A stretch of DNA of 30,728 bases from positions 1-30,728 of the IMG/VR virus record IMGVR_UViG_3300044641_005248. One strand, 5' to 3'. Numbering within the stretch: the stretch's first letter is position 1; each line of letters begins with the position of its first letter. Positions 1 to 26,018 of this stretch are shown here, in pieces. Made by a program: the position numbers and the translations under genes. The notes under the pieces were generated by a model, which had not been told where the DNA came from, did no database searches, and saw only the letters and a list, made by a program, of their open reading frames with translations. This DNA comes from a virus.

Positions 1-796
1 AGTCGATTATGTCTAACATTAAATTTTTTCCAAGTACGGACTCTAAGTCCCAACCAGTGTAAGACTTTAAATAAGTTATTAACCCCGAATAAGAGCCTTT
101 ATTTTTATAAATTTTCATGGCGTTTCTTAAAAGAACTCTTGACTGTTGTAATCCAATTTCAGGTTCAAATTTTAAACCAAATTGCTGCATCATAGGTGCA
201 ATGTATCGACCATCAACATAGGTAGTGTCCCCTGAGTACATTAAGTTTGTTGCAAGAGTTTTTTCTAAGTCGTATTCAAAAGCAAAAATACTTAAAAGAC
301 TTCTAAGGTCTTCATTTTCTCTACTGCTTGTGTAATCGTAGATAGTCGTACCAGTAATGGGGTTTGAAATAGCTAAGTCTGTATTCCGGTAAACAATAGG
401 TAAGTAGTTCCACATTCTATCAAGAGTATTAAAGTCTTTTACAGAGATTCCATAAGCATTTCCTGCTCTAACCCAGTCAGTCACGTTTGCGGGTAAAAGA
501 AAAATAGAATAGTAGTAAGTTCTACCTTGCTCTAAGTTAGAGTCTTCAAAGTACTCTTCAAAACTTTCATTGTTTTTTTCAACAAGAAGAACGCCGTCGT
601 CAGGGTCTACTGGAAACCCGTATTTATTTCTTACTAATCTAAACTTAGTCCAAGCACCCGTTGGAGTATTCCATATTACGTTAATAGTCCCATATGCTTT
701 TGGGACAGTGTAAAACGGAGCAGCACTAAACTGCACAAGAGCGGCGTTACCGTAACGTACTCCTGTGCCGTAAAAATCAACTCCATAACGACCCAT
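1..796 (-). CDS. Baseplate protein, P2 gpI-like (tail protein I family), C-terminus cut by window edge
   Basis: I read 265 codons from an ATG at 796 to the window edge without a stop, so the C-terminus is missing. The first ~115 residues look like a beta-sandwich of fibronectin type (VIWNTPTGAWTKFRLVRN and a later TYYYSIFLLP). The next part matches the P2 gpI/tail protein I pattern: WNYLPIVYR near residue 135, LRSLLSIFAFEYDLEKTL near 165-185, and a KGSYSGLITYLKSYTGW segment near 240-255. Members of this family form the outer baseplate wedge with gpJ and connect tail fibres. In P2-like phages gpI directly follows gpJ; here four genes lie between them. It starts 7 nt after the stop of the six-Cys gene, with only a weak ribosome-binding site. 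The family call is by pattern recognition. Confidence 0.75.
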   Translation of the reverse strand, partial: MGRYGVDFYGTGVRYGNAALVQFSAAPFYTVPKAYGTINVIWNTPTGAWTKFRLVRNKYGFPVDPDDGVLLVEKNNESFEEYFEDSNLEQGRTYYYSIFLLPANVTDWVRAGNAYGISVKDFNTLDRMWNYLPIVYRNTDLAISNPITGTTIYDYTSSRENEDLRSLLSIFAFEYDLEKTLATNLMYSGDTTYVDGRYIAPMMQQFGLKFEPEIGLQQSRVLLRNAMKIYKNKGSYSGLITYLKSYTGWDLESVLGKNLMLDIID

Positions 797-802
797 TTTA
801 AA

Positions 803-1030
803 TTACCATTTCTCTAACGGACAAGCAGCAAGTTTTAACTTTGTCTTCATAGACATAATACAGCCGCACTCTTTGCACTGCTTTGTTAACTTAATTAACT
901 TAGGACATCCGTTACATATTGTCATACGTGCATCAGAGACCTCTTCGTCAACGTATTCAGTTTTTGGGTTCAGTATGTCCCACGGGCGAGTATCACCAAG
1001 TTTGGCTTTGTATTCATCCCATTTACTCAT
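803..1030 (-). CDS. Small six-cysteine protein, likely zinc-binding (copy B)
   Basis: A 75-aa protein. Its second half carries C39-x2-C42, C52-x2-C55-x-C57 and C70, within CPKLIKLTKQCKECGC and a C-terminal CPLEKW. The spacing suggests a small zinc ribbon with four to six metal ligands. Proteins with this CxxCP-LIKLT-QCKxCGC-M-KTK-CPxxKW pattern are familiar as conserved hypotheticals in aquatic myoviruses; no function is known to me. A clear paralogue lies at 26065-26298, sharing the whole cysteine pattern and the DxLNP segment near residue 20. The ATG overlaps the previous stop as TAATG, so it is translationally coupled to the 129-aa gene upstream. A late structural or assembly role is inferred from position only. 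Confidence 0.85.
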   Translation of the reverse strand: MSKWDEYKAKLGDTRPWDILNPKTEYVDEEVSDARMTICNGCPKLIKLTKQCKECGCIMSMKTKLKLAACPLEKW

Positions 1031-1419
1031 TACTCCATCTCCCCAGGGATAATGAAGTCTCCATCAACATAGAGCCAACCTTCTCCAAGTATCTGGTAAT
1101 GCTTATGAATAGATGGGTCAATTTTAATAATAAGAGGCTCTGACAACAAAACAGCATGAAGCATTTCATCGCAGGTTAGCTCAGTAGTCTTGTTGTCTTT
1201 TGAAGTAATTTTTACACAAAATGACCCGTCTGTTGTAACAACCTCTTTAAAAGAAGTTGCAGTTAGCATTGTTTCAGAGAAAAAAGAATCAAAAATTAGA
1301 CTTTTTACAACTTCTCCGTCTATAACGCAGACAAGCCAGTCCGAAGTAAGTCCGTTTGGCACACGTTGCGCTTTTACTCCTGGCATTTTCCAGTCAATAT
1401 CGGCGTAATTTAATTTCAT
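1030..1419 (-). CDS. Unknown 129-aa protein of the adhesin cassette (copy B)
   Basis: I do not recognise a characterised family. The protein is soluble-looking and beta-rich, with no signal peptide or membrane segment. It starts at an ATG after a GGAT-type weak ribosome-binding site and ends in a TAATG overlap with the six-Cys gene. Residues 29-117 can be aligned by eye with the 144-aa protein at 26304-26738: VCVIDGEVV against VFVIEGQCVY, then an EL..E.L...LL.. stretch, and near the end LYVDGDFII against ATFDGAQFTI. Both copies sit between a fibronectin-like protein and a six-Cys protein, which supports paralogy. A role in attaching or completing the neighbouring fibre protein is possible but not shown. 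Confidence 0.75.
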   Translation of the reverse strand: MKLNYADIDWKMPGVKAQRVPNGLTSDWLVCVIDGEVVKSLIFDSFFSETMLTATSFKEVVTTDGSFCVKITSKDNKTTELTCDEMLHAVLLSEPLIIKIDPSIHKHYQILGEGWLYVDGDFIIPGEME

Positions 1420-1428
1420 ATATTTATC

Positions 1429-3423
1429 CTAACACGCCGGTGGACAGCATCTAGTTCTAACCCCGGCTGGGTCAGAGTTAGCAGCGCATTGCCCAACGTA
1501 GTAGCACTGCCAGTAGTTAACACTTGCTGAGTTATTAACGTCATAATCGGAGCATTGATATTTTAATCCTTGACTACAACAGCTAAGGTTTGACGTACAA
1601 CCCGCGGCCGCCGTAGATTGGCAAGAGGGGTATGTTCCAGTGTTGTTATATAAGCAAGCAATATTATAACCAGTACCGCTACCAGCTTGATTGTTAGTGC
1701 TTCCACCATTGTCGCTGCAATTTCCCACACCAGCACATTGCGAACTTGTTCGACAATAATATAGATACGGGGCAGGAGCAGGAGGCGATGTAGCAGCAGT
1801 TCCAGCTCCTCCAGAACCAGCGCTGTTTGAAGCAAACACAGAAATTGATGTGTACTCGGAATTAGTTGCTGAAGTACCCGTTGTGGTGAGATACCCCCCA
1901 CCAAAGGTATAGTAGTAAGTAAAAGGGCCGGTTCCAGTAGGAGCAGACCAATTGAAGTAAGAAGCGCCCGCGTAATACCCAGAAACAAGTCCTGCCATAC
2001 TTCCTGGGGAGGTTACAACAGGAGGTCTAGTCACAGAAAAACTTCCAGTTCCTCCAGAACCAGCGCTATTTGACGCGTAAACAGTTATTGTTAACGAGTC
2101 TCCGTATTCTGAATAGGATGTACTGTTTGTGCTGTTATATCCATACCCATTAATGCTGTAGTAATAAGTAAAAGGCGAAGTACCCGATGGCGGTGACCAG
2201 CTAAAAGTTATTAAACCGTTGCTCCAAGAACCAGAAATAAGTCCAGACATACTTCCTGGAGAAGTTACAACAGGTGGCCTTGTTACTGTAAAACTTCCAG
2301 ATTCTCCAGTGCCAGCGCTATTTACTGCTCTAACTGTTATTGTCTGTGAGTCTGCGTATACGGAATAAGACGTACTGTTTGTTGATGTAAACCCATATCC
2401 AAGACTGTATTCATAACTAAAAGGCGCAGTACCAGTAGTTGGTGGTGACCACGTAAAAGTAGCTAACCCATTGCTCCAAGAGCCAGAAACACGTCCTGCC
2501 ATACTTCCTGGAGCAACTACTGGTGCAGGTTCAGCCCCAGTAGTAACGGTGTTAGATGTCATAGTTCCACTACCGTTACTGTTACTTGCTGTAACAGTTA
2601 CATAATATGAGGTTGAATAATTAGCAGTAAAAGAAAATGAAGTTGTAGAGGTAGGTACAGAACCACTTGTAGCTACGTATGCTCCAGAAATACTCCATAA
2701 CATATAAGTGTACGAAGTTGGAGTAGTTCCAGCTGCCCATTGACCTGAAGTACACGTTACTGTGTTTCCGCTGGCAGTAGCTACTGGAGAGAGGCTTCCA
2801 ATAGGTCCTTGTGGCGGTGCAACATATGTATATGGAGTTGCAGAGTTAGAGGCAGCGCTTGCTGCAGCAGACCCATTTGCGTTAGAGGCTACGACAGTAA
2901 AGGTATACGCCGTTCCATCTGATAAACCGCTAACAGAAATAGGTGAACCAGAGCTTGAGCCAGTAAACCCGCCTGGACTAGATGTTGCTGTATATGTAAC
3001 AGTTTTTCCGCCAGTACCATTTGGGGTAAACCCTACAGAAACTGTTCCTGTAGCACCTGTTGCTGTTGCTGTTCCAATAGTTGCTGGTTGAGGGATAGTA
3101 GTTGCAAAAACAGAACCACTAGAAAGTGAGGGGCCTGTTCCAAGAGAGTTTGTTGCTGTTACTCCATATGTGTAACTAGTACTAGAAGACAGCCCAGTAA
3201 TTGTTAAGGGAGAAGAAGTGCCACTTGCAGTTAATCCACCTGGACTAGACGTAATTGCGTAGCCTGTTACTGGAAGTCCTCCATCGTGTACAGGCGCTGT
3301 GAAGGAGATAGTTGCACTGGCGTTGTTGTACGCCCGAGCAGTTCCTACATCAACACCAGATACAGAAGCAGGGGCGTAAGGAACTTCCCTGCTTGAAGAA
3401 GAAACAATTCCAGAAATAGCCAT
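1429..3423 (-). CDS. Multi-domain fibronectin type III-like adhesin with Cys-rich C-terminal domain
   Basis: A 664-aa Ser/Thr/Gly-rich protein made of tandem beta-sandwich domains. Residues ~15-200 hold two FN3-like units (PASVSGVDVG...RAYNN, then PATIGTATATG), and ~200-300 hold an Ig-like unit. Residues ~300-550 hold three closely similar ~84-residue repeats, each beginning PGSM-G and containing SWSNGL-TF-WSPP and NSAG-G. Residues 552-664 form a different domain with 14 cysteines, including two CC pairs, and end in CCPPAC. The N-terminus matches that of the 334-aa protein at 26772-27776 (AP-SVS--VG--RAYNN--A--SF). Position between baseplate J and I suggests a baseplate-attached adhesin or fibre. 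The start ATG overlaps the previous stop (TGATG). Function is inferred from domain type. Confidence 0.8.
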   Translation of the reverse strand: MAISGIVSSSSREVPYAPASVSGVDVGTARAYNNASATISFTAPVHDGGLPVTGYAITSSPGGLTASGTSSPLTITGLSSSTSYTYGVTATNSLGTGPSLSSGSVFATTIPQPATIGTATATGATGTVSVGFTPNGTGGKTVTYTATSSPGGFTGSSSGSPISVSGLSDGTAYTFTVVASNANGSAAASAASNSATPYTYVAPPQGPIGSLSPVATASGNTVTCTSGQWAAGTTPTSYTYMLWSISGAYVATSGSVPTSTTSFSFTANYSTSYYVTVTASNSNGSGTMTSNTVTTGAEPAPVVAPGSMAGRVSGSWSNGLATFTWSPPTTGTAPFSYEYSLGYGFTSTNSTSYSVYADSQTITVRAVNSAGTGESGSFTVTRPPVVTSPGSMSGLISGSWSNGLITFSWSPPSGTSPFTYYYSINGYGYNSTNSTSYSEYGDSLTITVYASNSAGSGGTGSFSVTRPPVVTSPGSMAGLVSGYYAGASYFNWSAPTGTGPFTYYYTFGGGYLTTTGTSATNSEYTSISVFASNSAGSGGAGTAATSPPAPAPYLYYCRTSSQCAGVGNCSDNGGSTNNQAGSGTGYNIACLYNNTGTYPSCQSTAAAGCTSNLSCCSQGLKYQCSDYDVNNSASVNYWQCYYVGQCAANSDPAGVRTRCCPPAC
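1780..2515 (-). repeat. Three tandem FN3-like repeats of about 250 bp
   Basis: Three in-frame copies of about 84 codons inside the 664-aa adhesin. Copy boundaries on the plus strand are marked by the recurring catacttcctgg at about 1996, 2249 and 2500. The first two copies in translation order are the most alike (shared GSWSNGL, STNSTSYS and YADS/YGDS), which points to a recent duplication. The third has diverged (GYYAGASYFNW). Confidence 0.8.
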
Positions 3424-4172
3424 CAGCTTGTACTCAAGTCTCCAACTAGTACAAATGACTGTGAAGTATTTAGCTTAATAAGTGTTGCAGATGAGTTTGT
3501 AGCGCGTAAGAATAGCCCAGGCGCCCCAACTACAGACGCAGAACCAGCAGCTACAACTTGAACCGTTCCAGTGCCTTTACGAAGAATATGCAGCTGTGCA
3601 CCTTGAGGAAACGCTACTGATGAGTTATCTGGAACCGTAATAGTTACTGCCGAGGCACTATCTACAACAATCATGGAATTTTTATCAGTAAGTGCAAGGG
3701 TGTAATTTGCTGTTTTATTTGAAATAACTAAATCAGACATAGTAACTCCACCAGAGAAATTACCTGAAGCATCAATATATGACAAGACAGTTCCTGAGGA
3801 GTTCTGCCACTCAAGTAAATTAGCTGATTGAGACGCGGCTCCCTTCAAGATAAGGGGCTTAGTAGTAGCTGCTCCAGCAGTAATAACGTTTCCTGTATCA
3901 CCAGCTTTTTTAATATACTGAGTGTGGGTATCAGAAACAATTCCCGTTTCAATGTTTGCCAAACGAGCAGATACAGTTAAAAAGGGGTTAGAGGTGGTGT
4001 TAAACGTTCCACCAGAAGAGGGTGCTGTAGAAATATTTGGGTTTATTCCCAAAATTGTTTCAATAGCAATAACCTCATCTTGCAAAAGGTTTGGGTGAGA
4101 CGCATCAATAACGTCTACAACGTTTACTTTTGTAGAGTACGAGGCGATACTGGCTGGGTAGGTTGCTGTCAT
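3423..4172 (-). CDS. Minor tail / fibre-type protein with a C-terminal domain shared with the 808-aa fibre
   Basis: A 249-aa protein. The N-terminus (YPASIASYSTKVNVVDVIDA followed by QDEVIAIETILG) is a pattern I know from phage minor tail proteins encoded near fibres. Residues ~60-140 look like a linker with short fibre motifs (AGDTGNVITAG, TTKPLILKG). Residues ~150-249 match the last 100 residues of the fibre at 27798-30224: YTLALTDK, SASAVTITVP, FPQGAQLHILRKGTGTVQV, GAPGLFLRATNSSATLIKL and a terminal VGDLS. That domain is probably a trimerisation or receptor-facing tip; this is inference. It starts at an ATG 9 nt after the gpJ-like stop, with an AAGGA ribosome-binding site. Likely part of the baseplate adhesin set with the next gene. 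Confidence 0.75.
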   Translation of the reverse strand: MTATYPASIASYSTKVNVVDVIDASHPNLLQDEVIAIETILGINPNISTAPSSGGTFNTTSNPFLTVSARLANIETGIVSDTHTQYIKKAGDTGNVITAGAATTKPLILKGAASQSANLLEWQNSSGTVLSYIDASGNFSGGVTMSDLVISNKTANYTLALTDKNSMIVVDSASAVTITVPDNSSVAFPQGAQLHILRKGTGTVQVVAAGSASVVGAPGLFLRATNSSATLIKLNTSQSFVLVGDLSTS

Positions 4173-4181
4173 GTTTTTTCC

Positions 4182-6350
4182 TTAGCTCGTGATTCCGCCG
4201 GAAGCGTTGATAGTAATGGTTCCTTCTTCTGGTATCTCATTTACAGCACATACAATGTCTGCAACAGAGAATACTTGCACTCCAACTAAGCGTGCAGTTC
4301 CTGAAGCAGCTGTTGATTCCACAACAGTATTTCCAAGGCGTGCATACGTAAAAGTGTTTGGGGTAGTATCTAATATTTGATAAGTTCCGTTAAAATTAAC
4401 GTCCAACCCAGAAACAGTTACATATTTTTCAGCTTGGAACCCGTGGTTAGCAGAAGTAGTAATTGTAGCAACTTCACCGCTTAGTGCTTTATTTGTAATA
4501 GTCCATGAAGAGGTAACTGCAGCAGAAGTAACATCTGTTGCTGTTTTACTATAGGTAAAGGTAGTTGTAGTTGGAACGCTTAAAACAACATAAGTACCAT
4601 TAAATGTTGTATCTACATTTGTAATGCTGACCGTTTGACCCACCGACAACCCGTGAGCTGACGCAGTTGTAAGAGTAGCAACATTTGAAGTTAAAGCTTT
4701 GTTTGTAACGCTTGCAAACTGCTGTGCGTCACGACGCCTCAGAACATTAAACTGCGAGTAGTCAACGCCCGGTACATTTGCAATAACTCTCATTAAATAC
4801 TGCAGGCTTATGCGGTCTGAGAACAATACGTTATCAAACGTTAAGATTTCTGCCAAAGCTGCTAAGACCGCACTTTTAACGTTAATTTGACGATATTGCG
4901 GCAAAACTGTTAAATCTAAAGTAATATCAACAGGAACGTAAGAAGGTGGAGCAATAGTTAATGAGGTGTTTGCTGGTGCTTTACCTTGCAAATAAGTTGC
5001 AACAATTTTTTTAAGCACATTAAAAGTATACGTAGGAGTTACGTTATCTACTTCAACGCCTCGGTTTCCAAATATGGCCATGTATAAAACAACACTACTG
5101 TAGGTCTCGGCTTTTGAGTTTGCTTTTGCAACTCCAGAAACTTGTAAGGCCAAAGAAGAGTAATCGTTTAGAGAAACTGCTCTGTTTAGTGACTTAAGGC
5201 TAATAGGCGCATTAACTTTAATAGAGTCTGTTGTTTCAGCGCTTGCTCCGCCGCCAGCAGCTGCTGGATTTGTAACGCTAAGGCCAGCTTCGTTTATGTT
5301 TAATAATTCAGTAAGAGAACCGGCGGTAACGTTACCTTCTTCGCCCCCACCTACTCTATACGTAGCCCTAATAACTTTTCCTAGGGGAGGTATTTTTCCA
5401 CCAATATTGTCACCAAATTGAATAAAAGATATATCATCAGCATCAGTAAACACTGTAAACGCTGGGGTGCTTCCCGGAAAATCAATAAGGTATTGAGTTC
5501 GTTCGTATGAAACATAATCAACTGTTACAGCAACTGTTGACTCAATTACTGGAGAGGTCTTTAGTTGATAAACCTGATTAGGCTCTCCCGTAGAGCTATA
5601 AGTAACAACTTCTTCGGTAATTGTAACCCCTTGAGTTGCAAAAACATCTGTTTGACCAGGTTGAGCTCCGCCAAGGCCTGTGATAGTTCCTGTTGTAGAC
5701 GCACTAGCAACAGTTGATGAGCCAATTACAACAGTTAGGGTAGTTGAGCTAGGTACAGTTACAACTGTTGCAGTTCCAGTTACGGCTGCAAATGGTGACA
5801 CAGTATTTGTAAAAGTAACAGACTGCCCCACGTAAAAAATGTGAGCTGCTGAAGTAGTTACAGTCACAGTGCCGTTAGATATAGCTAAATTTGAAATTGT
5901 AGAAGTTGTTGTAGAAGCTGGAACTATAATAGTTTCGTCAGTTTCAAACACAACTTGAGATGACACTCCGTTAATAGAGGCTGTAGCGCTAACTTGTGTC
6001 AGTGCAGGAACCTCAATTGGAGCAGCAGAAGTGTTACTAAACGTAAGTTTTACGTATGAAGGGCTACTCTGAGTAGGTTGGTAATCTAAAAGAGCAGCCT
6101 GGCGCAAAATACTAGAACGTTTTGTAGCCGTTGAGATAAACGCTTCATTTGCGCTTCGGTCAATATAGTATGATTGCAAATCTCCCAGATAAGCTTGAAG
6201 TTGGATTAAAGCGTTACCAAAATCTGTAGAGTCTTTAAAGCTCTTCCATTGAGGTGCGTAAGTAGGTACTAGCAGATATAGGTCATCGCGGATAGACAAA
6301 AAATCTCGTGAGGTGTAATCCACTTGCGGTACAAAGTTTTGGTCAGCCAC
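4182..6350 (-). CDS. Baseplate wedge protein, P2 gpJ-like, with three Ig-like insertions
   Basis: A 722-aa protein. Residues 10-95 (YTSRDFLSIRDDLYLLVPTY, then a SYYIDRSANEAFISTA segment) are the usual start of gpJ-like baseplate proteins. The core continues at ~230-545 with FGDNIGGKIPPLG, the YRVGGGEEGNV segment and LNRAVSLNDYSSLA. GpJ binds gpW and gpI to form the wedge that anchors fibres and triggers contraction. Three beta-sandwich inserts interrupt it: residues ~148-223, ~547-616 and ~617-684. The last two are tandem copies of one domain (AT-TT-A-HG----VT---D--FNGTY). Without them the protein would be about 500 aa. The start codon is GTG and overlaps the gp25-like gene by 8 nt. Strong call from motif and gene order. 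Confidence 0.9.
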   Translation of the reverse strand: MADQNFVPQVDYTSRDFLSIRDDLYLLVPTYAPQWKSFKDSTDFGNALIQLQAYLGDLQSYYIDRSANEAFISTATKRSSILRQAALLDYQPTQSSPSYVKLTFSNTSAAPIEVPALTQVSATASINGVSSQVVFETDETIIVPASTTTSTISNLAISNGTVTVTTSAAHIFYVGQSVTFTNTVSPFAAVTGTATVVTVPSSTTLTVVIGSSTVASASTTGTITGLGGAQPGQTDVFATQGVTITEEVVTYSSTGEPNQVYQLKTSPVIESTVAVTVDYVSYERTQYLIDFPGSTPAFTVFTDADDISFIQFGDNIGGKIPPLGKVIRATYRVGGGEEGNVTAGSLTELLNINEAGLSVTNPAAAGGGASAETTDSIKVNAPISLKSLNRAVSLNDYSSLALQVSGVAKANSKAETYSSVVLYMAIFGNRGVEVDNVTPTYTFNVLKKIVATYLQGKAPANTSLTIAPPSYVPVDITLDLTVLPQYRQINVKSAVLAALAEILTFDNVLFSDRISLQYLMRVIANVPGVDYSQFNVLRRRDAQQFASVTNKALTSNVATLTTASAHGLSVGQTVSITNVDTTFNGTYVVLSVPTTTTFTYSKTATDVTSAAVTSSWTITNKALSGEVATITTSANHGFQAEKYVTVSGLDVNFNGTYQILDTTPNTFTYARLGNTVVESTAASGTARLVGVQVFSVADIVCAVNEIPEEGTITINASGGITS
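4299..4712 (-). repeat. Two tandem Ig-like domain repeats in gpJ-like protein
   Basis: Residues 547-616 and 617-684 of the gpJ-like protein are two copies of a ~69-residue unit. Both start TNKALSG/TSN, continue VATLTT/VATITT, then HG, and share FNGTY near the middle and TFTY near the end. A third, more distant copy lies at residues ~148-223 (about 5682-5909). Confidence 0.8.
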
Positions 6351-17633: not shown

Positions 17634-18167
17634 CTAAGCTTGTGCGTACGCCAAGAACTGAGCATCATTGACAAGCTCGTCTGGCATTAATTGTATCAAA
17701 TCTAGCGAAATAATTGTATGGCGTTCGGCTATCTGCCCGTGTTGTTGGGTGCGAACTGGGCGGTATACCTGGCCTTGCCAAACAAGGCGGTACTTGTTGG
17801 CTATGTCTAGGCTGGTCTTAACCTCTCCTCTGGCATTAAACAGGGTTGGGCTAGCTAGCCTTAGGTCATCAATATTGAGGGTAATATGCAAAGAGTCGGC
17901 GTTGTAGAAACCGCGGTCATTTATGGCTGAAGTTCCCTGGGTTATCTTTGCGCTAATAATCTTAAGAGTAACTGGGCCAGTCCAGACACGACCAGCACCT
18001 AGAGGTTCTACATCGTAAATAGGGTCTTTAACTGAAGCCGCAGCGTTATAGGCCCACCATTGTCCAGTAGTACCCTTAGGATTAGTTGAGTCGGCGGTTA
18101 TGCCGTCGGCAATTTCATTTAGCTCAAAATCTGTGCTAAATCTTCCGCCTGGTGTGTATGCTCTCAT
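17634..18167 (-). CDS. Neck / head-closure-like protein
   Basis: A 177-aa protein starting MRAYTPGGRF at the ATG at 18167, which overlaps the stop of the sugar-transferase gene as ATGA. A longer frame to 18191 adds eight unlikely residues inside that gene. The sequence is beta-rich (VWTGPVTLKIISAKITQGTS, then LHITLNIDDLRLASP), with a C-terminal YRLVWQGQVYRPVRTQQHGQ and IISLDLIQLMPDELV. Proteins of this kind between head and tail genes often close the head (head completion or adaptor). The call rests on position before the gp10-like and terminator genes; no signature motif is certain. Confidence 0.55.
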   Translation of the reverse strand: MRAYTPGGRFSTDFELNEIADGITADSTNPKGTTGQWWAYNAAASVKDPIYDVEPLGAGRVWTGPVTLKIISAKITQGTSAINDRGFYNADSLHITLNIDDLRLASPTLFNARGEVKTSLDIANKYRLVWQGQVYRPVRTQQHGQIAERHTIISLDLIQLMPDELVNDAQFLAYAQA

Positions 18168-18817
18168 TTTTCTATTATAGGGGCAAAGCACGGTAATTCA
18201 TTGTAAGCGATGTACTTCCCATAGTAATTTACCTCAAAATTATCGTAAAAAGCCGACTTAAAATCTTTTGAATGCAGGGCACCGTAAAAGTCGTTACAAG
18301 CCGTGTCACTCGTAGAAGCTTGCTCAACAAAACGCGTTAATGGACAAGGCCACTTATCTAACTCCCCAGCTAAATAGTGTTTATCTTTCAATTTTTTTAT
18401 AATTATTTCAAGATTTTTTGAGTTCTTACCTACAACATAATTACAGTTATTATAATAAAGTGGACCTGATTGACTAGTTGCTAAAAGGTCGTGGTCACAC
18501 TGTAAGGTATCAAGCATGTAGTCTAGGGGAACTTGACATACCGAGTCCATATCTGCGTACGCTCCACCATATTTATAGGTTACTAAGTATCTCCATATAT
18601 CTGCTTGGGTTACAAAATTTAACTTTTTATAATGAGTATATAGTACAGGGTCTTCCGTTTTTACAAACTCTTCCCTATCTATATGATTAACGTACCTGTA
18701 CTCCCAGGTTGGATTTAAATTTATCCAGGTCTGTGTTACTTGCTTTAAATGTTTTGGCAACTCTTCATACAGGTAGTTATGTGTTTGCCAAATTATTTTA
18801 GGAATATCTTTAGGCAT
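18164..18817 (-). CDS. GT32-like glycosyltransferase (DXD sugar-binding family)
   Basis: A 217-aa protein. The start IPKIIWQTHN, the QADIWRYLVTYKYGGAYADM stretch at 71-90 and the D89-M-D91 motif are the hallmarks of the glycosyltransferase family with a DXD sugar-binding region (OCH1/capsular-type, GT32). The DXD binds a nucleotide-sugar through a divalent metal. No membrane segment is seen, so a cytoplasmic enzyme is likely. It follows the dehydrogenase by 6 nt with no clear ribosome-binding site and overlaps the neck gene. The acceptor is unknown; given the location it could be a virion protein, and a cell-surface polymer is an alternative. Confidence 0.85.
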   Translation of the reverse strand: MPKDIPKIIWQTHNYLYEELPKHLKQVTQTWINLNPTWEYRYVNHIDREEFVKTEDPVLYTHYKKLNFVTQADIWRYLVTYKYGGAYADMDSVCQVPLDYMLDTLQCDHDLLATSQSGPLYYNNCNYVVGKNSKNLEIIIKKLKDKHYLAGELDKWPCPLTRFVEQASTSDTACNDFYGALHSKDFKSAFYDNFEVNYYGKYIAYNELPCFAPIIEK

Positions 18818-18823
18818 ACAAGG

Positions 18824-19489
18824 TTAGTACTTACTACTATTTATATGACAAAGCTCAATTTCATTTATATTAACGTGACTTGGTAGCGACCCCACCCAGT
18901 AAATAGCTTCTGCTAAATCCTCTGCGGTTAAGGCTTGGTCTCGTTTTTGTTCTTGAGTATCAATAGTTGCTGGACAAATTTCTGTAATTTTAATTCCAAA
19001 TTGAGGAAATTCAAGTCTCATCGTTTCAATTAACCCGCGCTCACCCCTTTTGGCGTTTGTGTAGTTTCCTCCACCGCGATACGGCACCTTACCTCCAAAA
19101 GAGGTAATAAAAACAATTGTTGGGGAGTCTGACTTTTCCATACAGGGTACAAATAGTTGAGAAAGATACATAGGCCCAGATACGTTTATATCGTAGGCTC
19201 GTCTAAAGTTATCCATGGTTTCATTAATAATGTTAGTTGGGCCAGAACCACCACCAGCGTTATTAACCAAAAGGTCTAAAGTAATATCTTTATACTTTTC
19301 AAAAAAGCCCTCTATTGCTTTGGAGTCTGTTACATCTAGGCTGTATACCTCAACGTTGTCAGATACAAGCTTAGATACTTTGGAAAGGTCTCTTGAAACA
19401 GCAATAACCTTGTATCCGTTTTCGGATAGACGCTTGACTGTTGCTAGGCCTACGCCCTTACTTGCTCCAGTAACAATTGCTGTTTTCAA
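18824..19489 (-). CDS. Short-chain dehydrogenase/reductase (SDR)
   Basis: A 221-aa classical SDR. It has TGASKGVG at 7-14 (NAD(P) binding), NNAG at 76-79, catalytic Ser130 (FITSFGG) and the YxxxK pair Tyr143/Lys147 (YTNAK). Lys11 in the glycine motif and Arg33 after the second strand (AVSRDLS) suggest NADP preference. Length is slightly short (typical ~250), with a truncated C-terminus. The start is TTG, right after the TAG of the oxygenase gene; no usable ATG lies near. The substrate is unknown; a sugar or a hydroxylated product of the neighbouring enzymes is possible but unproven. Confidence 0.9.
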   Translation of the reverse strand: MKTAIVTGASKGVGLATVKRLSENGYKVIAVSRDLSKVSKLVSDNVEVYSLDVTDSKAIEGFFEKYKDITLDLLVNNAGGGSGPTNIINETMDNFRRAYDINVSGPMYLSQLFVPCMEKSDSPTIVFITSFGGKVPYRGGGNYTNAKRGERGLIETMRLEFPQFGIKITEICPATIDTQEQKRDQALTAEDLAEAIYWVGSLPSHVNINEIELCHINSSKY

Positions 19490-20245
19490 CTACATACCCT
19501 GGTTCTTATTAAGCTCCATGTTGTTATGAATCCAGTGACCAGGAATCATGTATTTAAACCCAGACTTTACAGTGTGTGCTGTATGGAAATATGGTGGAAA
19601 TGCTGGAAATATGACAACGCTATTTGCTTTTGGTTTTAGCCCAAAATCAATTGCCTTATTTGCAACAGACACGTCATAGTCTAAATCTACAGCTGGAGCT
19701 GACCCTTTAGAAAAACCATCAGCGCTAGTCCATCCTCCATCATAATCTTTTAACTGAAAAGAGATTTCGCCGCCTTCACAGTCATCGTTTAAGTACATTA
19801 CTAATGAATATCTTAAAGTTTTATCCCCGTCTAGCTGGTCAAAATGTGCGCCCATGCCCATTCCAGTATTGTATTTCTTTATGTTAAAAGTTGGAAAAAG
19901 ACGTGGCTCATCAAAATCGCCCAAAGAAGAGGCGTAATCTTTGCAAACATTGTACATTGTGGTCATAATAGCGTTGTAAATATATTTACTTTTTTCCGCT
20001 ACTTCGGCTGAATGCGGAGAAAAGATTGGACTAAGCCGATGTATTGCATCAATATCAAAAGTCTTTGTTTCTCCATAGATAAAAGAGGCATCGTTAGAAG
20101 AAGTCCAAGGGTTCCAAACATTTACCCCAGAATCTGGATATTGCTCAAGAGTGTCTAGCTCTTTCCAAACCTTTTTAAAGGTATCAAAGTCCTCAATAGC
20201 ATCCGTATAGTAGTACGCTTTTGGGTCTAGTATTTCTCTATTCAT
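19490..20245 (-). CDS. 2OG-Fe(II) oxygenase, prolyl-4-hydroxylase-like (no. 6)
   Basis: A 251-aa protein. The iron ligands are His134-x-Asp136 (MGAHFDQLDG) and probably His221 (YFHTAHTVKSGFKY), with Lys231 as the likely 2-oxoglutarate anchor. The family core MYLNDDCEGGEISF lies at 150-163. A ~30-residue insertion (GWTSADGFSKGSAPAVDLDY region) separates the core strands and is absent in the other five copies. Enzymes of this fold use O2 and 2-oxoglutarate to hydroxylate proteins or small molecules. The ATG is preceded by AAGGAG. The SDR gene starts with TTG directly after its stop. Confidence 0.88.
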   Translation of the reverse strand: MNREILDPKAYYYTDAIEDFDTFKKVWKELDTLEQYPDSGVNVWNPWTSSNDASFIYGETKTFDIDAIHRLSPIFSPHSAEVAEKSKYIYNAIMTTMYNVCKDYASSLGDFDEPRLFPTFNIKKYNTGMGMGAHFDQLDGDKTLRYSLVMYLNDDCEGGEISFQLKDYDGGWTSADGFSKGSAPAVDLDYDVSVANKAIDFGLKPKANSVVIFPAFPPYFHTAHTVKSGFKYMIPGHWIHNNMELNKNQGM

Positions 20246-20256
20246 TTGTATACTCC

Positions 20257-20919
20257 TTAGTACTTATTTTTTTCGTAGTGATTTTTTTCTTTAATGAATC
20301 CCACTGTAACATACCTAATAGGGCCATCTCCTACATGTCTTACTCCATGCTCATACTCTTCAGTGCCTGGAAAAATAAGTAAAGTTTTTGGTTTTGGTTT
20401 TATGTCTGATTGCTCTTTATTTTTAAAAAACAAAGTTCCATCTTTATAATCGTCATTAAGATATAGTATGGCGGCATATCTTATAGATGGGTCTGTAGTT
20501 TGGTCTGTGTGAGCCTTTAGTTCAACACCACTTTGCATTCTTTGCAGCGTTCCAAATCCAGCAAGCTCTAAGGTAGGGTCTGCAAGTTGAACCAGGTTGT
20601 TAAGTCTGTCTTGAATAGTTCTGCTTATTGGCTCATTAACCATCCTTAAGTTTTTATCTTCCCAGCCCGCAGTTATTTCAAACTTTCCTTCAGCAACAAG
20701 GTTGTCTACGTCTTCCCTTCCAAATTTTTCCATACAAAATAGAGCAAGGTTTCTTGTATATTCTACTGACCACTCTTCGTTAGGGGTGGTTTCAATTATT
20801 TTTAAAATTGTTTGCAGTTCTTCGTCGTCTAGAAAATTATCTACTGACAGAACACCCTCGTGTAAAACTTCAACAATATATCCGTTATTTTCAAACTCTT
20901 TTTTTAAAAAGATGCTCAT
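20257..20919 (-). CDS. 2OG-Fe(II) oxygenase (no. 5)
   Basis: A 220-aa protein. Iron ligands are His137-x-Asp139 (LKAHTDQT) and His191 (YEHGVRHV), with Arg202 (PIRYVTVGF) as the likely 2-oxoglutarate binder. The core motif LYLNDDYKDGTLFF is at 152-165. The N-terminal 110 residues are helical. Ends of the enzyme are charged (KEKNHYEKNKY). The fold is the prolyl-4-hydroxylase/2OG superfamily; the target is unknown. It abuts the next oxygenase gene upstream (stop at 20920 side, start ATG at 20919), so the two are translated together. Confidence 0.88.
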   Translation of the reverse strand: MSIFLKKEFENNGYIVEVLHEGVLSVDNFLDDEELQTILKIIETTPNEEWSVEYTRNLALFCMEKFGREDVDNLVAEGKFEITAGWEDKNLRMVNEPISRTIQDRLNNLVQLADPTLELAGFGTLQRMQSGVELKAHTDQTTDPSIRYAAILYLNDDYKDGTLFFKNKEQSDIKPKPKTLLIFPGTEEYEHGVRHVGDGPIRYVTVGFIKEKNHYEKNKY

Positions 20920-21666
20920 TTACAGCTCTTCTACTTTATATTTGTTTCCAGAAGCGTCCAGCTTCCAACCTTGCTTAAGCAAGTCTTGCCACTCTGCTCG
21001 TTCAATCTCTTGTTGCGCTCTAGTGGCCTTCATTTCTTCGGCCCATGCATCTCGCACCTCTTGTGGATACGCTGACTCTTCTCTATCATCCCAGAAAGAC
21101 CCAATGGTGTATCTGACCCCGCCTGTGATAAGAGAGACTTCGTGCATGTTGTTGAAGCCCCCATCAAATACAGCAAGCATTCCAACTTCTGGTTTAATCT
21201 CTAAATTTTGTGTTGGGAACCGTAAAAGCCCACCATCAAAATCATCGTTAAGATATAGAAACCCTGCGTAGCGGCTTCTTGTAAACGCACCTGAGTTTCC
21301 TTCAGCGTCTGTGTTGTCAGAGTGAATTCTTGCGTATGCTCCTGGCTCCCACTTCTGTGTGTGGTACCCAATTTTACAAATTGTTTTTGGGTCAAGGTCG
21401 TGTACGGAAGCAATTGCTTCTGGCATTGCCTTTTCAATATCTGAAAATATGGTTGGAGATAGCCCAGCATCAATAACCTCTTGGGCGTTATCTTGTGGCA
21501 AAACTGAAGAGTATGATTCATAGAATGATATTGGCATCCAAGAGATTGCTCCGCTGTCTGCTTGAGCATCTAGGGCTTGAATCATTTTTTTACAATCTTC
21601 TTTGCTTATAAAGTTCTCATAAACAACTATGTCTTTTGTTAGTCTTTTTTTGTTCGCTAGGTTCAT
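20920..21666 (-). CDS. 2OG-Fe(II) oxygenase (no. 4) with C-terminal helical tail
   Basis: A 248-aa protein. Iron ligands are His115-x-Asp117 (ARIHSDNT) and His175 (NNMHEVSLITGG), with Arg185 as likely 2-oxoglutarate anchor. The core LYLNDDFDGGLLRF is at 137-150. About 50 residues after the core (from EESAYPQEV) form a charged helix (EMKATRAQQEIERAEWQDLL), unlike the other copies; it may be an oligomerisation or docking arm. Residues 12-30 (DIVVYENFISKEDCKKMIQ) are the usual entry strand-helix of this family. Position, spacing and fold all fit the oxygenase run. Confidence 0.88.
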   Translation of the reverse strand: MNLANKKRLTKDIVVYENFISKEDCKKMIQALDAQADSGAISWMPISFYESYSSVLPQDNAQEVIDAGLSPTIFSDIEKAMPEAIASVHDLDPKTICKIGYHTQKWEPGAYARIHSDNTDAEGNSGAFTRSRYAGFLYLNDDFDGGLLRFPTQNLEIKPEVGMLAVFDGGFNNMHEVSLITGGVRYTIGSFWDDREESAYPQEVRDAWAEEMKATRAQQEIERAEWQDLLKQGWKLDASGNKYKVEEL

Positions 21667-21682
21667 TGTGCCTTTACTCCGT

Positions 21683-22456
21683 CTAGTTATTTATAAGGGA
21701 TTTATCTCCAGCAATAAGCTTTTCTATTTCCTGTTGAACAAGGGCGTACTCTTCATTAAACACTTCTGTGGTTCTGCCCTCTCCCAGAGAGGCAGGTGTA
21801 CCTTTAGCTATTAAGTCTTCTTTTAGTGTCTTTTCAATATCGTAGTTTAATACTGTGCATTGAAACCAGTTTGCTACATACCCATCTCTATCAATAAGGT
21901 ACTTTTCAAAGTTTCCGCCCTGCATTGCGCCATTAGCTACAGGTTGATTTAGCCAAGGCGACAGGTAACCATCTCTGTCTGGAATACCAAGTTCTTTTTG
22001 TTTTGCGGCGTACGCAAACATTTGCTCGGCTATTTCTTTATATAGCTCGTGCGTTTCTTTTCTTGGTTGACCTAAGCCGTTTACAGAGCTATTTCCCTTG
22101 TGGGGGCTAAGCTCAGTAGCACTCTCATTTGGGTTTGACGATACCATCTCTGAGAACTTAAACGTGGTTCCGTAGACTTCTTGACCATATTCTTGTGAGT
22201 CTAAACCACAGGTAATGCCTTCAGACCACTTACCCTTAGTAACTCCTGGTCCACAGAAGTCATTGGTAGGGATAGCAATAATTTGGAAATCATCTCCACC
22301 GTACTTATCTTGAAGCCATTGAAGAACTTCCATTTGATTAGCGTTACCACAGCCTACGGTTGTATTAGCCAGTAGGGTGACTTTACCCTTAAATTGACTT
22401 AAGAAGTCAGGAGAACCCTCAGCCGAGTTAAGCGGGATATCGTAAATTGATTTCAT
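21683..22456 (-). CDS. Glutathione-peroxidase-like thiol protein with altered catalytic tetrad
   Basis: A 257-aa protein of the thioredoxin-fold peroxidase family. IYDIPLNSAEG, FKGKVTLLANTTVGCGNANQ with Cys36, IIAIPTNDFCG at 59-69 and GGNFEKYLIDRDG at 180-192 align with GPx landmarks. Two of the four usual catalytic residues differ: the Gln of NQF is Asp66, and the Trp of WNF is Gly181; Cys36 and Asn182 remain. Cys68 and Cys83 could act as a resolving cysteine. The protein is longer than bacterial GPx (~160-180 aa) because of an insertion at ~95-175 and a C-terminal helix. It may protect against peroxide or recycle thiols, or it may no longer be a peroxidase. No good Shine-Dalgarno is visible. 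Confidence 0.78.
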   Translation of the reverse strand: MKSIYDIPLNSAEGSPDFLSQFKGKVTLLANTTVGCGNANQMEVLQWLQDKYGGDDFQIIAIPTNDFCGPGVTKGKWSEGITCGLDSQEYGQEVYGTTFKFSEMVSSNPNESATELSPHKGNSSVNGLGQPRKETHELYKEIAEQMFAYAAKQKELGIPDRDGYLSPWLNQPVANGAMQGGNFEKYLIDRDGYVANWFQCTVLNYDIEKTLKEDLIAKGTPASLGEGRTTEVFNEEYALVQQEIEKLIAGDKSLINN

Positions 22457-22477
22457 ATGTTTTATTGTACCCCGTCA

Positions 22478-23164
22478 TTACGGTTTTCTATCCCCTGTAT
22501 GCGCTGTAATTTCCCAGAAGAAAGGGCACGTAAATCTTAAGCCGCTTTTGATTTCAGTAACCCCATGGATATAGTTTTTATCCCCTGGGAAGAAGTAAGC
22601 GGCACCTTTTTTAGGCTTAAACTGCACGCCCTGTAGGGGGAAGTATAGTTCTCCGCCTTCATAGTCGTCGTTTAGGTAAAACAAACTTGATAGGTCATAG
22701 TTTGGGAAGTCGTTAGGTGTTCCCGCGTCAGGGCCCTCGTGAAGTTCTTTATCCGCATGGGGGTTTTGAAACTGCCCAGGAAGCCATTTAACAATAGTCG
22801 TACCAGTCGGAACAACTTCTACCTTATAAAACTCTTCAATAATTGGCCTTAGGCGTTGGAAGAGCCCCGCAATTACTGGGGATATCTTTGGGTCATTTTT
22901 ATCTAAGGTTGGTTGAGTTGCAACCCTATCTTTCCAATAGTCTGAGTCGTAGGTAACGGTGCCATTTTCATTTGTATGGCTTTGCGTCACGTCCCAAATT
23001 GTTAGCGACTTGGCGGCTTTTTCTAAAAACTCTATCTCTTCTTGAGTCATAAAGTTTTCTAGCTCGACAATCATGTCTTTGCTATCTCCAAACCAGCCAG
23101 ATGGGGTCATAGACGGCGTTCTTTTTGCCACGGTATACAAATCTTTATTTTGTTCCATGCTCAT
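22478..23164 (-). CDS. 2OG-Fe(II) oxygenase (no. 3)
   Basis: A 228-aa protein. Iron ligands are His136-x-Asp138 (NPHADKEL) and His200 (YIHGVTEIKSG), with Arg210 (LRFTCPFFW) as likely 2-oxoglutarate binder. The core FYLNDDYEGGELYFPL is at 162-177. An insertion of ~20 residues after HAD (GPDAGTPNDFPNYDLS) may shape the substrate pocket. The Pro-Phe-Phe-Trp end of the core is shared with many phage hydroxylases. The ATG overlaps the stop of the unknown gene upstream. Confidence 0.9.
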   Translation of the reverse strand: MSMEQNKDLYTVAKRTPSMTPSGWFGDSKDMIVELENFMTQEEIEFLEKAAKSLTIWDVTQSHTNENGTVTYDSDYWKDRVATQPTLDKNDPKISPVIAGLFQRLRPIIEEFYKVEVVPTGTTIVKWLPGQFQNPHADKELHEGPDAGTPNDFPNYDLSSLFYLNDDYEGGELYFPLQGVQFKPKKGAAYFFPGDKNYIHGVTEIKSGLRFTCPFFWEITAHTGDRKP

Positions 23165-23877
23165 AGTGTATCTCTTTTTGTTTTATCTATTACGTCAAGC
23201 TTTAAAACCTTTACTTCATGATTACCTAAAGACTCTTGTTTTTCATTTACGGCATCTCTATACCAGTCAGTCCATTTACCAGTAGTTATTAGTGCCTGTG
23301 TGGCCGCCCCATAAGACCTATTTGCTTTATCCCTTAAACCATTTTCATCTTTATAGTCAAAAATTTCTATAGTACTGTTGTTTAAGTTAGTTAAAGATAT
23401 AGGTATAATTGTTGCTAAGGGGGTCCCTGCTTTTATTACTACTTTTTCGTTTGCTTTTTTTGCCCTAATGGATAGGGGAAGGGGGTTCCCGTAAAAGGAT
23501 GTACTTATCATGCTAGACATTGTTTCAAAATATTCACTAAAGTAATTAACTGGGTTTATAGTAAAGAGACTTGTCTCCTCGTCTGTTTTAAATACTAAAC
23601 CGGTGTTTAAACTAATAGACGACTGTCCTCTTCCAGAGTAAGCCCCTTCAGGACTAAAGATTTGAACGTGCTCGGGTGTTGCATCTGTTACTCCATCCCA
23701 AATAAACTCAATATCTTGAGAACAAGAGAGGCTCCATCCTACGACATTTGCTTGTGTTACTGGGAAACATCTGTACGCATGGTTTTCTGCTGTTGCGTCC
23801 ATCCAGTCTCTTTTAATTGACATAGGCTGAATGTTAAACAAGGCCCCTTGCATTTTTTCAACTGAGATATTAAACAT
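23161..23877 (-). CDS. Unknown protein related to the 255-aa neighbour (possible DUF6065-like), copy 2
   Basis: A 238-aa protein of unknown function. By eye it shares a layout with the protein at 24544-25311: an N-terminal PVTQANVVGWSLSCSQDIEF region, then NPVNYFSEYF against SPMNRFDLPF, and IKAGTPLATIIPIS against LPAGTPCMQVLPFKR. This resembles the family I know as DUF6065, found beside phage oxygenases; I am not certain of the name. No metal triad is obvious. It is coupled to oxygenases on both sides (1-nt and 4-nt overlaps), so it probably works with them, perhaps as substrate adaptor or second enzyme. Confidence 0.6.
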   Translation of the reverse strand: MFNISVEKMQGALFNIQPMSIKRDWMDATAENHAYRCFPVTQANVVGWSLSCSQDIEFIWDGVTDATPEHVQIFSPEGAYSGRGQSSISLNTGLVFKTDEETSLFTINPVNYFSEYFETMSSMISTSFYGNPLPLSIRAKKANEKVVIKAGTPLATIIPISLTNLNNSTIEIFDYKDENGLRDKANRSYGAATQALITTGKWTDWYRDAVNEKQESLGNHEVKVLKLDVIDKTKRDTL

Positions 23878-24533
23878 TAGTCTAAGTCTGCGCTGTACAT
23901 CTCTGGGGTGTGGAACTTTTTGCTGTAATCAAGCATTGTCACAATAGAGTATTTAGTTCCCGAGGTTACTGGCATTGCTTGATGTGGGTACATAAAGTTT
24001 GATGGAAAAATAAATAGGTCTCCAGCCTCTGGCTTAACCTTTAAGTTTTGAAGTCTAAAATACAATTCCCCACCTTCATAGTCATCATTGACGTATGAAA
24101 CTAAAGACACAGTACAGTTGTAGGAAAACCCGTGGTCGTGGTGCTCCATAAAGTGCTGGCCAGGGCCGTATTTAATAAAGTTAAACGCTTCCCAATATTT
24201 TAAGTTGTTAATGTTATACATTCTTGAATAATCTTGAACTGCAGGCAGCTTAACATCGTATAGGTCTTGCCACAAAGCCTGTAGGTTTAAACTAACCTGA
24301 CTCTTGTCATGTTCAATGTCTGTTTTTTTAAACTTAAAGTCGTTGCAGTCTCTATACTCTGGCATAAGTTGTTTATAGCCAACATACGCAGGTTGCCACG
24401 CGTACCCAGTCGTATCTCCCTCTGGCTTAAGGTTTGCCTCAATTCTATTTACAACATCAATCTCTTTATTAATTACGCCCTTATAACGGAATATCCCATT
24501 ACCTAGGTCTTCTTTACCCGTCCATGTAGACAT
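23877..24533 (-). CDS. 2OG-Fe(II) oxygenase (no. 2), prolyl-4-hydroxylase-like
   Basis: A 218-aa protein when started at the ATG at 24533, which has AGGGAG 9 nt upstream. A longer frame to 24635 would overlap the previous gene by 92 nt and adds a hydrophobic, unconserved stretch, so I reject it. Iron ligands are His131-x-Asp133 (MEHHDHGF) and His184 (YPHQAMPVTSG), with Lys194 as likely 2-oxoglutarate anchor, as in collagen-type prolyl-4-hydroxylases. The core SYVNDDYEGGELYFRL follows. It is the closest relative of oxygenase no. 1: both share EAFNF-KYG/E-G-HF and a YNCTVS segment. Confidence 0.92.
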   Translation of the reverse strand: MSTWTGKEDLGNGIFRYKGVINKEIDVVNRIEANLKPEGDTTGYAWQPAYVGYKQLMPEYRDCNDFKFKKTDIEHDKSQVSLNLQALWQDLYDVKLPAVQDYSRMYNINNLKYWEAFNFIKYGPGQHFMEHHDHGFSYNCTVSLVSYVNDDYEGGELYFRLQNLKVKPEAGDLFIFPSNFMYPHQAMPVTSGTKYSIVTMLDYSKKFHTPEMYSADLD

Positions 24534-24543
24534 TATATTCTCC

Positions 24544-25311
24544 CTATTTGTACTCTCGTCTTGACCAAACTTTATTTTGATATACCCCGCCATCAGGCTG
24601 TCGGTAAAACTGCATGTTATTAACCATTTTATCATACATCGTAGACTGGTCTAAAAATTCTATCTTGTGTTCCCAGTTTTCTCGCTTAAAAGGAAGAACC
24701 TGCATACACGGTGTTCCCGCCGGTAATGTGCCCTCCCAACCTTCCGTAATAAAAAAGGGAAAGGTGCCAAGTAAATGAACTTTATCGGCGTCGACAACCC
24801 CAGTAGTATTTAAAAAGGGCAAATCAAACCTATTCATTGGGGACATAAACAACGCGCTGTATCCTTCTGGAAGTTCTAGTCCCCAAGGAATACTCCAAGC
24901 AAAATGATTTTGGTAGTAACCTTTTGGGTGCTCAAACTGAGGCATTGGAGGGCGTGCGGTACAAAAATCTTTATAGTTAGGGTCATCAATTTTTACATCT
25001 ATGATTCCCTGGCTATTTTTATAAAAGACTAAGTCGCACGGCGTTTTAAAAACGTACCCAGTTGTAAACGCGTCCATAATCGCAGGACACGCTTTCCATG
25101 TAGGAATCTTTCCGTAGTCATCGGTTGTGCCTTCTTTAGGGAACGGGCAAACTTCTTTTGGCGCCTTGTAGTATTCGCCGTTTGGCATTTTTGCAAATCT
25201 ATCTGCGTCCTTATACCAGTCTGGAATTTCTGTTTGTGTTGGGGCAGGAGAAGAAATATCTCCTTTTTTTATCCACGGTCTAAAAGGTCTAAATATGGCA
25301 ATCAAAGACAT
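24544..25311 (-). CDS. Unknown protein (possible DUF6065-like), copy 1
   Basis: A 255-aa protein. Landmarks are IPDWYKDADRF near residue 29, PTWKACPAIMDAFTTGYVFK near 70-90, WSIPWGLELPEGYSALFMSP near 139-158, NRFDLPFLNTTGVVDADKV and LPAGTPCMQVLPFKR. I recall similar proteins beside phage oxygenases under the name DUF6065; the identity is not checked. The fold looks beta-rich and enzyme-like but no catalytic residues can be assigned. The start ATG overlaps oxygenase no. 1 by 1 nt, so the pair is co-translated, and the same pairing recurs downstream. Confidence 0.65.
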   Translation of the reverse strand: MSLIAIFRPFRPWIKKGDISSPAPTQTEIPDWYKDADRFAKMPNGEYYKAPKEVCPFPKEGTTDDYGKIPTWKACPAIMDAFTTGYVFKTPCDLVFYKNSQGIIDVKIDDPNYKDFCTARPPMPQFEHPKGYYQNHFAWSIPWGLELPEGYSALFMSPMNRFDLPFLNTTGVVDADKVHLLGTFPFFITEGWEGTLPAGTPCMQVLPFKRENWEHKIEFLDQSTMYDKMVNNMQFYRQPDGGVYQNKVWSRREYK

Positions 25312-26018
25312 TATTTGTGTCCTAACTCGTTAATATCTGTCATAACAACAACGCAATACTTTGTTCCTGAGTCTATAGGAAGAGATGCGTGTTCGTAAAT
25401 ATAGTTTGACGGAAATACAGCAATATCTCCAACTTTTGGTTTATAAACTAAGTTGTCAAGTCTTGGAAACTTTAGGTCCCCGCCCTCATAATCATCATTA
25501 ATGTATATAACAGCAGACACTGTACAGTTATACGCTGGGCCGTGGTCCGCATGAATATTAAAGTGCGTCCCTGCACCTTCGTACTTTACAAAGTTAAAAG
25601 CCTCGTAATAGACAACATTTATCCCCCAATACCTCGCATAGTCATCTATGCAGTATTTTAGTTTTTGATAAATCTCTTCATGCAGGTCAATTAATTCTGA
25701 ATTACTTTCGTTTCTTGGCCCTAAATTTTCCTGCTTGTATTTAAAATCTACAGCGTCTCTAGCCTTCTTAATTGGGGTTGTAGAGTTTGTTACTTGTGCT
25801 TCAGACCACTTATAAGGTCCATTTTGCCCTAAGTTTGACTCAAGGGTATTGATGTATCTATTTGCATCATCTAAAGAAAATGTGTTGTGGTAAACGTGTA
25901 GCCCTAAACCAAGGTTTTCAGCGGTAATGCCGTTACCAACTTCTTTTACAGGAACTCTGGTTGACGCGGTTTCTGTTCTATCTTTTGTAAACCAGATATT
26001 TTCATTTTCGTTATGCAT
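25311..26018 (-). CDS. 2OG-Fe(II) oxygenase (no. 1), prolyl-4-hydroxylase-like
   Basis: A 235-aa protein. Iron ligands are His156-x-Asp158 (FNIHADHG) and His210 (YEHASLPIDSG), with Lys220 as likely 2-oxoglutarate anchor. The core IYINDDYEGGDLKF is at 171-184, and VYYEAFNFVKYEGAGTHF precedes the HxD. It is the first gene of the enzyme island, starting at an ATG with GGAG a few nt upstream and a TATAAT box further up. Target residue and protein are unknown; Lys in place of Arg is the arrangement used by animal prolyl-4-hydroxylases. Confidence 0.92.
   Translation of the reverse strand: MHNENENIWFTKDRTETASTRVPVKEVGNGITAENLGLGLHVYHNTFSLDDANRYINTLESNLGQNGPYKWSEAQVTNSTTPIKKARDAVDFKYKQENLGPRNESNSELIDLHEEIYQKLKYCIDDYARYWGINVVYYEAFNFVKYEGAGTHFNIHADHGPAYNCTVSAVIYINDDYEGGDLKFPRLDNLVYKPKVGDIAVFPSNYIYEHASLPIDSGTKYCVVVMTDINELGHK

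Follow-up and report, generated by a model that had tools for sequence, protein, structure and literature searches.

A widespread swappable module of fibre tip, cysteine-rich adhesin and two small partners is present in two versions in an aquatic phage

The 30,728-base viral record IMGVR_UViG_3300044641_005248 (the whole stretch analysed, here called the window) belongs to an aquatic phage that carries two versions of a widespread, swappable module consisting of a fibre tip, a cysteine-rich adhesin and two small partner proteins. All structural genes are on the minus strand. The first version (set 1) follows baseplate gene J in the order A1 (249 aa), B1 (664 aa), C1 (129 aa), D1 (75 aa) and an I-like open reading frame (ORF), and the second (set 2) runs A2 (808 aa), B2 (334 aa), C2 (144 aa) and D2 (77 aa), after which come 2-oxoglutarate (2OG)-Fe(II) oxygenases and other enzymes. 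A first-pass annotation had placed both sets correctly and had described set 1 as a second copy of set 2, a four-gene cassette inserted between J and I that might be mobile or duplicated and serve a second virion site. The genes of the two sets and their borders are as follows.

4182..6350, minus strand: baseplate J (gp6-like wedge, 722 aa), upstream border of the slot, with the Baseplate_J domain of P2 gpJ (PF04865, E = 1.9e-12; phrog_219, E = 3e-31).
3861..4172, minus strand: A1 residues 1 to 104, the AN domain, predicted attachment domain of the resident J-I fibre (gp99 of Streptomyces phage LuckySocke, E = 6e-8; AN in 22 relatives).
3432..3719, minus strand: A1 residues 152 to 247, C-terminal tip domain 1, a putative adaptor (46% identity to tip 2; hidden Markov model [HMM] E = 8e-37; predicted local distance difference test [pLDDT] mostly >90).
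1429..3423, minus strand: B1, putative adhesin of 664 aa with an FN3 start (fn3, E = 4.6e-13), later repeated beta domains and a Cys-rich C-terminal knob.
1030..1419, minus strand: C1, putative small partner protein of 129 aa, a long form of family C (held-out family-C profile, E = 7.6e-7; 37% identity to the C protein of locus L177).
803..1030, minus strand: D1, six-Cys protein of 75 aa (DUF6171, E = 7e-6; phrog_13558, E = 5e-17).
2..796, minus strand: 5' part of an I-like baseplate protein that ends at the window edge and has 770 aa in locus L002 (LuckySocke gp100, E = 8e-34).
27798..30224, minus strand: A2, long fibre of 808 aa with an Mtd_N start (PF18454, E = 3.5e-16) and tip domain 2 at residues 712 to 808 (27801-28091; tip HMM, E = 2e-41).
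26772..27776, minus strand: B2, putative adhesin of 334 aa with an FN3 start, an (FFPPFFPF)n stalk at residues 208 to 287 and a six-Cys end (BLASTP, profiles and composition).
26304..26738, minus strand: C2, putative small partner protein of 144 aa, likewise of the long family-C type (family profile by hhalign, E = 2.4e-5; 42% identity to the C proteins of L168 and L171).
26065..26298, minus strand: D2, six-Cys protein of 77 aa (DUF6171, 29.8 bits, above the cut-off).

J and I homologues occur in the same order in P2, the second through LuckySocke gp100, which is a Tail_P2_I protein (PF09684, E = 5e-6); the I-like proteins of the window and L002 give no Pfam match. Unlike P2, the window lineage and its sisters have an AN fibre and an adhesin module between the two genes. 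For comparison with other phages, loci were taken from IMG/VR contigs, often partial and many of them close relatives, at the best 80 matches per search; the counts given here are therefore samples, not censuses, and proteins from outside the window were assigned to families by HMMs constructed for this analysis.

The two sets are homologous at all four positions. In pairwise BLASTP, A1 and A2 share 46% identity over 99 aa (E = 5e-21), confined to the C-terminal tip (∼98 aa); B1 and B2 share 49% over 78 aa (E = 4e-14), within the first FN3 domain only; and D1 and D2 match over their full length (53% over 72 aa, E = 2e-28), with six cysteines at the same spacing, 2-9-2-1-12, that are invariant in 39 family members. 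The common tip, FN3 start and six-Cys layout noted in the first-pass annotation were thus recovered, and the six-Cys pair was not the only one to align. C1 and C2, also presented there as a matching pair, gave no significant BLASTP match (E = 3.8) and were connected through family C, built from small proteins adjoining D in other loci and marked by the motif VIDGxV...LLSxP...GWxYDGxxF. C1 matched a profile made without C1 or C2 (E = 7.6e-7 among ∼5,000 ORFs), and C2 matched a wider profile to which relatives of C1 had been added (hhalign E = 2.4e-5), a score that none of 2,000 shuffles of C2 reached. The direct C1-C2 alignment is collinear (E = 0.0017), and longer C proteins of the same layout exist elsewhere, near C2 in L168 and L171 and near C1 in L177. 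All four gene pairs are therefore homologous, C remotely. The description of set 1 as a second copy holds for gene order and homologous positions but not for most of the A and B sequence, which the sets do not share, and no convincing DNA-level similarity was found between them (best blastn E = 0.012).

Shared order and four homologous positions are also what an in-genome duplication of the 26-30 kb set would leave, but this origin, proposed in the first-pass annotation, is very improbable and has been largely refuted. A sister relationship of tip 1 and tip 2 was rejected (approximately unbiased test, p = 0.009), whereas an older common clade holding both is compatible with the data (p = 0.07), and tip 2 groups with tips from other phages in a starred clade (99/97). 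The closest relatives differ as well: the knob (48%), C (37%) and D (68%) of module 1 are nearest to L177, where they stand behind a PASTA-type B and a different fibre, and outside its own lineage module 2 has its closest C and D in L167, L168 and L171. Together with the lack of DNA similarity, these results make separate acquisition of the two modules the probable history.

The J-I gap of related phages is filled in several ways. Among loci with both genes, J is followed directly by I in 41 and by an AN protein without the tip (117 to 226 aa) and then I in 22, and one locus reads J-x-AN-I; that the module interrupts J and I is thereby borne out. In LuckySocke, the gene that separates J from I has homology only to the N-terminal 104 aa of A1, and among the loci sampled the order J-AN/tip-FN-C-D-I occurs only in the window lineage (the window, L002, L006 and L008). 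A scan with the AN protein of the closest outgroup uncovered other fillings. In L220 to L222, J is followed by AN with a C-terminal motif, T2, that differs from the window tip; behind it come an adhesin of 600 aa containing 38 Cys and PT repeats, then D, an HxD/H protein of 191 aa, a PF11397 transferase (GT60, E = 8e-18) and I. In L224, J and AN with T2 precede an adhesin of 261 aa whose stalk is Thr-rich, then C and D, a pair of sugar-enzyme-like genes and I. The 191-aa protein, examined in L221, is oxygenase-like only by iterated profiles and by a fused relative in L057, and its PHROGs label is ferrochelatase.

Two sister lineages thus hold different modules in the same slot, D being present in each, which makes the module exchangeable. 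AN is kept, whereas the tip and everything behind AN differ, and the exchange breakpoint therefore lies inside the fibre gene A; with AN constant and different D-containing modules behind it, the J-I slot acts as an adhesin socket. The resident J-I fibre, judged by sequence, makes up the N-terminal ∼100 aa of A1. The inserted four-gene cassette of the first-pass annotation accordingly survives as a multigene graft that does not start at the boundary of gene A, and the suggested mobility survives as exchangeability: a self-mobile cassette was rejected, since no flanking repeat pair was found around 803-4172 and the ORFs of the insert include no recombinase-like gene. The slot counts by themselves cannot separate gain from loss, and the module might be the ancestral content of the gap, lost from the J-I and J-AN-I relatives. 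We regard this as quite improbable: sister lineages carry other adhesin and tip types in the slot, so that replacement is required in any case, and the knob, C and D of module 1 are closest to those that follow a different fibre in L177.

Multigene orders of this kind recur in other phages, where the first-pass annotation had proposed to look for them. The tip domain is the C-terminus of its protein in nearly all cases. The gene after the tip is hypervariable, with an FN3, PASTA or lectin-like start, a Cys-rich end and stalks of the FFPPFFPF, PPTFTP, PAPAP or poly-T type. In L042, L198 and L211, tip, Thr/Pro stalk and Cys-rich part are joined in a single protein, with D 22 to 27 bases downstream. 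The gene before D (chosen by skipping C, oxygenase, D and far-off tip genes) contains 2.8% Cys versus 0.6% in the remaining genes of these loci (n = 64; none of 5,000 resamplings as high). A tip or C lies near 46 of the 53 D genes that have 2 kb on both sides. The D loci (1.34 Mb) hold 65 tips, 98 C and 129 D, compared with 1 tip and no C, D or FN in a J-locus control of 0.84 Mb; the D loci were chosen for D, and therefore only the tip and C counts are informative in this comparison. The N-terminal class of B clusters on the tip tree, with 11 changes versus a mean of 26.4 after shuffling (0 of 200 as low). Several contigs, including L012, L016 and L056, have at least two sets of adhesin genes or two to three copies of D; multiple modules per phage therefore look common.

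These genes might form no functional module at all, being minor tail genes that share tip and FN3 domains by shuffling, with operon structure alone accounting for the adjacency of C and D. The widespread occurrence of tip and FN3 domains fits this view, as do Gordonia fibres, which carry the tip without D. Yet C and D, missing from the control, recur next to the adhesins of different phages at varying genome positions, three different modules that share one slot all retain D, and tip-adhesin fusions exist; chance assembly of this kind is accordingly unlikely. The probable explanation is that tip-B-C-D is an exchangeable receptor-binding module, present once on the resident J-I fibre and once on a long Mtd_N-type fibre, and acquired separately in the two places. 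A would be a fibre whose C-terminal tip serves as an adaptor, and B a separate, hypervariable adhesin (docking domain, stalk and Cys-rich knob) seated on it; docking of B on the A tip is, to our mind, likely, and both proteins would then be present in virions. The chance that the small proteins C and D help, as dedicated partners, in assembling or maturing B is about even. One module would have been grafted onto the short AN-domain fibre between J and I and the other onto the long fibre upstream of a modification-enzyme array, so that the phage would display one adhesin on each of two fibre types; the two virion sites, as in the first-pass annotation, are suggested by gene context alone.

Several observations weigh against this explanation. 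The D trees do not decide between histories (p = 0.19 and 0.41), the D-based sister test failing to separate D1 from D2 (p = 0.19). Clustering of B classes on the tip tree could come from linkage alone. The tip domain also occurs in fibres that lack D, for example, in Gordonia siphophages, in which the gene that follows is not rich in Cys, and D also occurs outside an adhesin context (ACP17 and RHph_TM30). Finally, A-B binding and the virion location are both deduced, not observed.

Structure models and known systems offer partial parallels. In the A1 model, residues 150 to 249 are mostly of high confidence and the remainder of low confidence. Its Foldseek matches (Pa223 capsid spike, E = 2.8e-5; CBA120 TSP4, E = 4e-4) have low TM-scores and large root mean square deviations and were therefore used only as a hint that the tip may be a tailspike-like beta domain. 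The C1 model (mean pLDDT 73) gave no match in the Protein Data Bank (PDB) below E = 0.001, and the fold search matched it only weakly to 7ypx_a, the Pam3 fibre complex (E = 0.78). The simplified Pam3 fibre gp24-gp25, with its tail-fibre-assembly (TFA) chaperone (PMC9608196), is likewise a baseplate fibre whose dedicated partner is the product of an adjacent gene; unlike that chaperone, none of 54 C members matched the TFA (Caudo_TAP) Pfam family, and this identity was ruled out at the level of Pfam profiles. As in gp37-gp38 of T-even phages and S16 (PMC12892980 for PP01 gp38), a separate receptor-binding protein at the distal tip would be encoded by the gene after the fibre, a location suggested here by the tip-adhesin fusions. 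B1 and B2 differ from gp38 in their FN3 starts and Cys-rich ends: against PDB sequences they matched only titin, fibronectin and other FN3 proteins, with no match to solved gp38, and no T-even counterpart of C or D was found. In Synechococcus phage S-SRM01 (L216, 3327-6273), a flavin-dependent halogenase gene lies just ahead of an adhesin gene annotated as "gp37-gp38 adhesin tip complex," and D directly follows the latter.

Modification enzymes are frequent neighbours of D. The array behind D2 sits between D2 and the neck genes:

18164..26018, minus strand: likely modification array of six PF13640 2OG-Fe(II) oxygenases, a DUF6065 protein, a GPx-like protein, an SDR and a DXD glycosyltransferase (profiles).

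B2, with its FFPPFFPF stalk, is thus followed past D2 by six oxygenases and a glycosyltransferase, which we infer to serve module 2; B1, with 14 of its 15 Cys within the last 108 aa, has no stalk of this type and no such enzyme neighbours. D is fused to a PF11397 GlcNAc-transferase in L198 (E = 2.6e-39) and L208 (E = 4.1e-39) and overlaps or abuts such a transferase in several further loci. Eukaryotic relatives of the PF11397 family act on hydroxyproline of Skp1. With the adhesin taken as the upstream ORF with the most Cys (minimum, 4) and a 25% proline cut that was chosen during exploration, not beforehand, an oxygenase or PF11397 transferase lies beside D for 24 of 30 adhesins with Pro-rich stalks versus 7 of 39 others (p = 4e-7). 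The association persists without the 191-aa family (20/30 versus 6/39, p = 2e-5) and with D collapsed at 70% identity (17/18 versus 6/20, p = 5e-5). A tree-based paired test left 3 to 4 supported pairs, too few for significance, although informative pairs nearly always agree.

Because of the D-transferase fusions and the stalk-enzyme association, D (DUF6171) can be tentatively proposed as a recruiter of 2OG-Fe(II) hydroxylases and PF11397 GlcNAc-transferases to the Pro/Thr-rich stalks of Cys-rich adhesins, such that phages might hydroxylate and O-glycosylate their own receptor-binding proteins; modification of the stalks is likewise possible, at somewhat less than even chances. Alternatively, D might be a regulatory or nucleic acid-binding zinc-ribbon protein carried in tail operons and unrelated to adhesin maturation, in keeping with its small, CxxC-rich sequence, the position of some D genes among DNA-metabolism genes and one ACP17 annotation reading "DNA-directed RNAP." This alternative is not likely, given the fusions to and overlaps with PF11397 transferases and the Cys-rich adhesin upstream of D in most loci. 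At the DUF6171 (PF19668) cut-off of 27 bits, D2 passes with 29.8, D1 is just under with 26.8, and the L208 D-transferase fusion scores 28.0. A virus-encoded 2OG-Fe(II) enzyme is also known from PBCV-1, whose prolyl 4-hydroxylase reportedly acts on proline-rich peptides from viral proteins (Eriksson et al. 1999, as cited by PMC9301287). The enzymes described here differ from it in their location next to adhesin genes and D, in some cases together with a PF11397 GlcNAc-transferase, and their substrate is putative. Our literature search found nothing on DUF6171 or on hydroxyproline with phage tails.

Some loci show further variation around D. In the near-identical contigs L037 (7773-8715), L039, L040 and L041, the PF11397-type transferase beside D is a frameshifted or decayed gene, split into overlapping ORFs of 104 and 223 aa. 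Proteins in the adhesin position in L200 (4703-5899), L204 (2053-3327) and L206 (4702-5970) end, as judged by eye only, in a Hint/intein-like sequence (..IIAGNMVVHN), which suggests autoprocessing or an intein. The isolated cyanophage S-IOM18 (L245, 4666-6925) encodes a fibre-like protein of 316 aa containing 9 Cys, a protein with weak resemblance to thioredoxin, D, and one HxD/H protein, which resembles 2OG oxygenases but has no Pfam match. When 84,980 bacterial and archaeal genomes were scanned with the D profile, using one peptide pattern, only two D relatives emerged, in a Helicobacter sp. (L249) and a Rhodobacteraceae metagenome-assembled genome (L250), both possibly within prophages.

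Taken together, the tip-B-C-D module is a unit by which aquatic phages seem to swap whole receptor-binding assemblies, and the J-I gap is a named genomic slot for such exchange, with the breakpoint within the fibre gene. D lies beside adhesin-like or oxygenase genes in the isolated Synechococcus phages S-IOM18, S-SRM01 and S-SSM7, and tests independent of the uncultured phage are therefore available. The module also provides a context for the uncharacterised DUF6171 protein and for the 2OG-Fe(II) oxygenase genes found beside phage tail genes.

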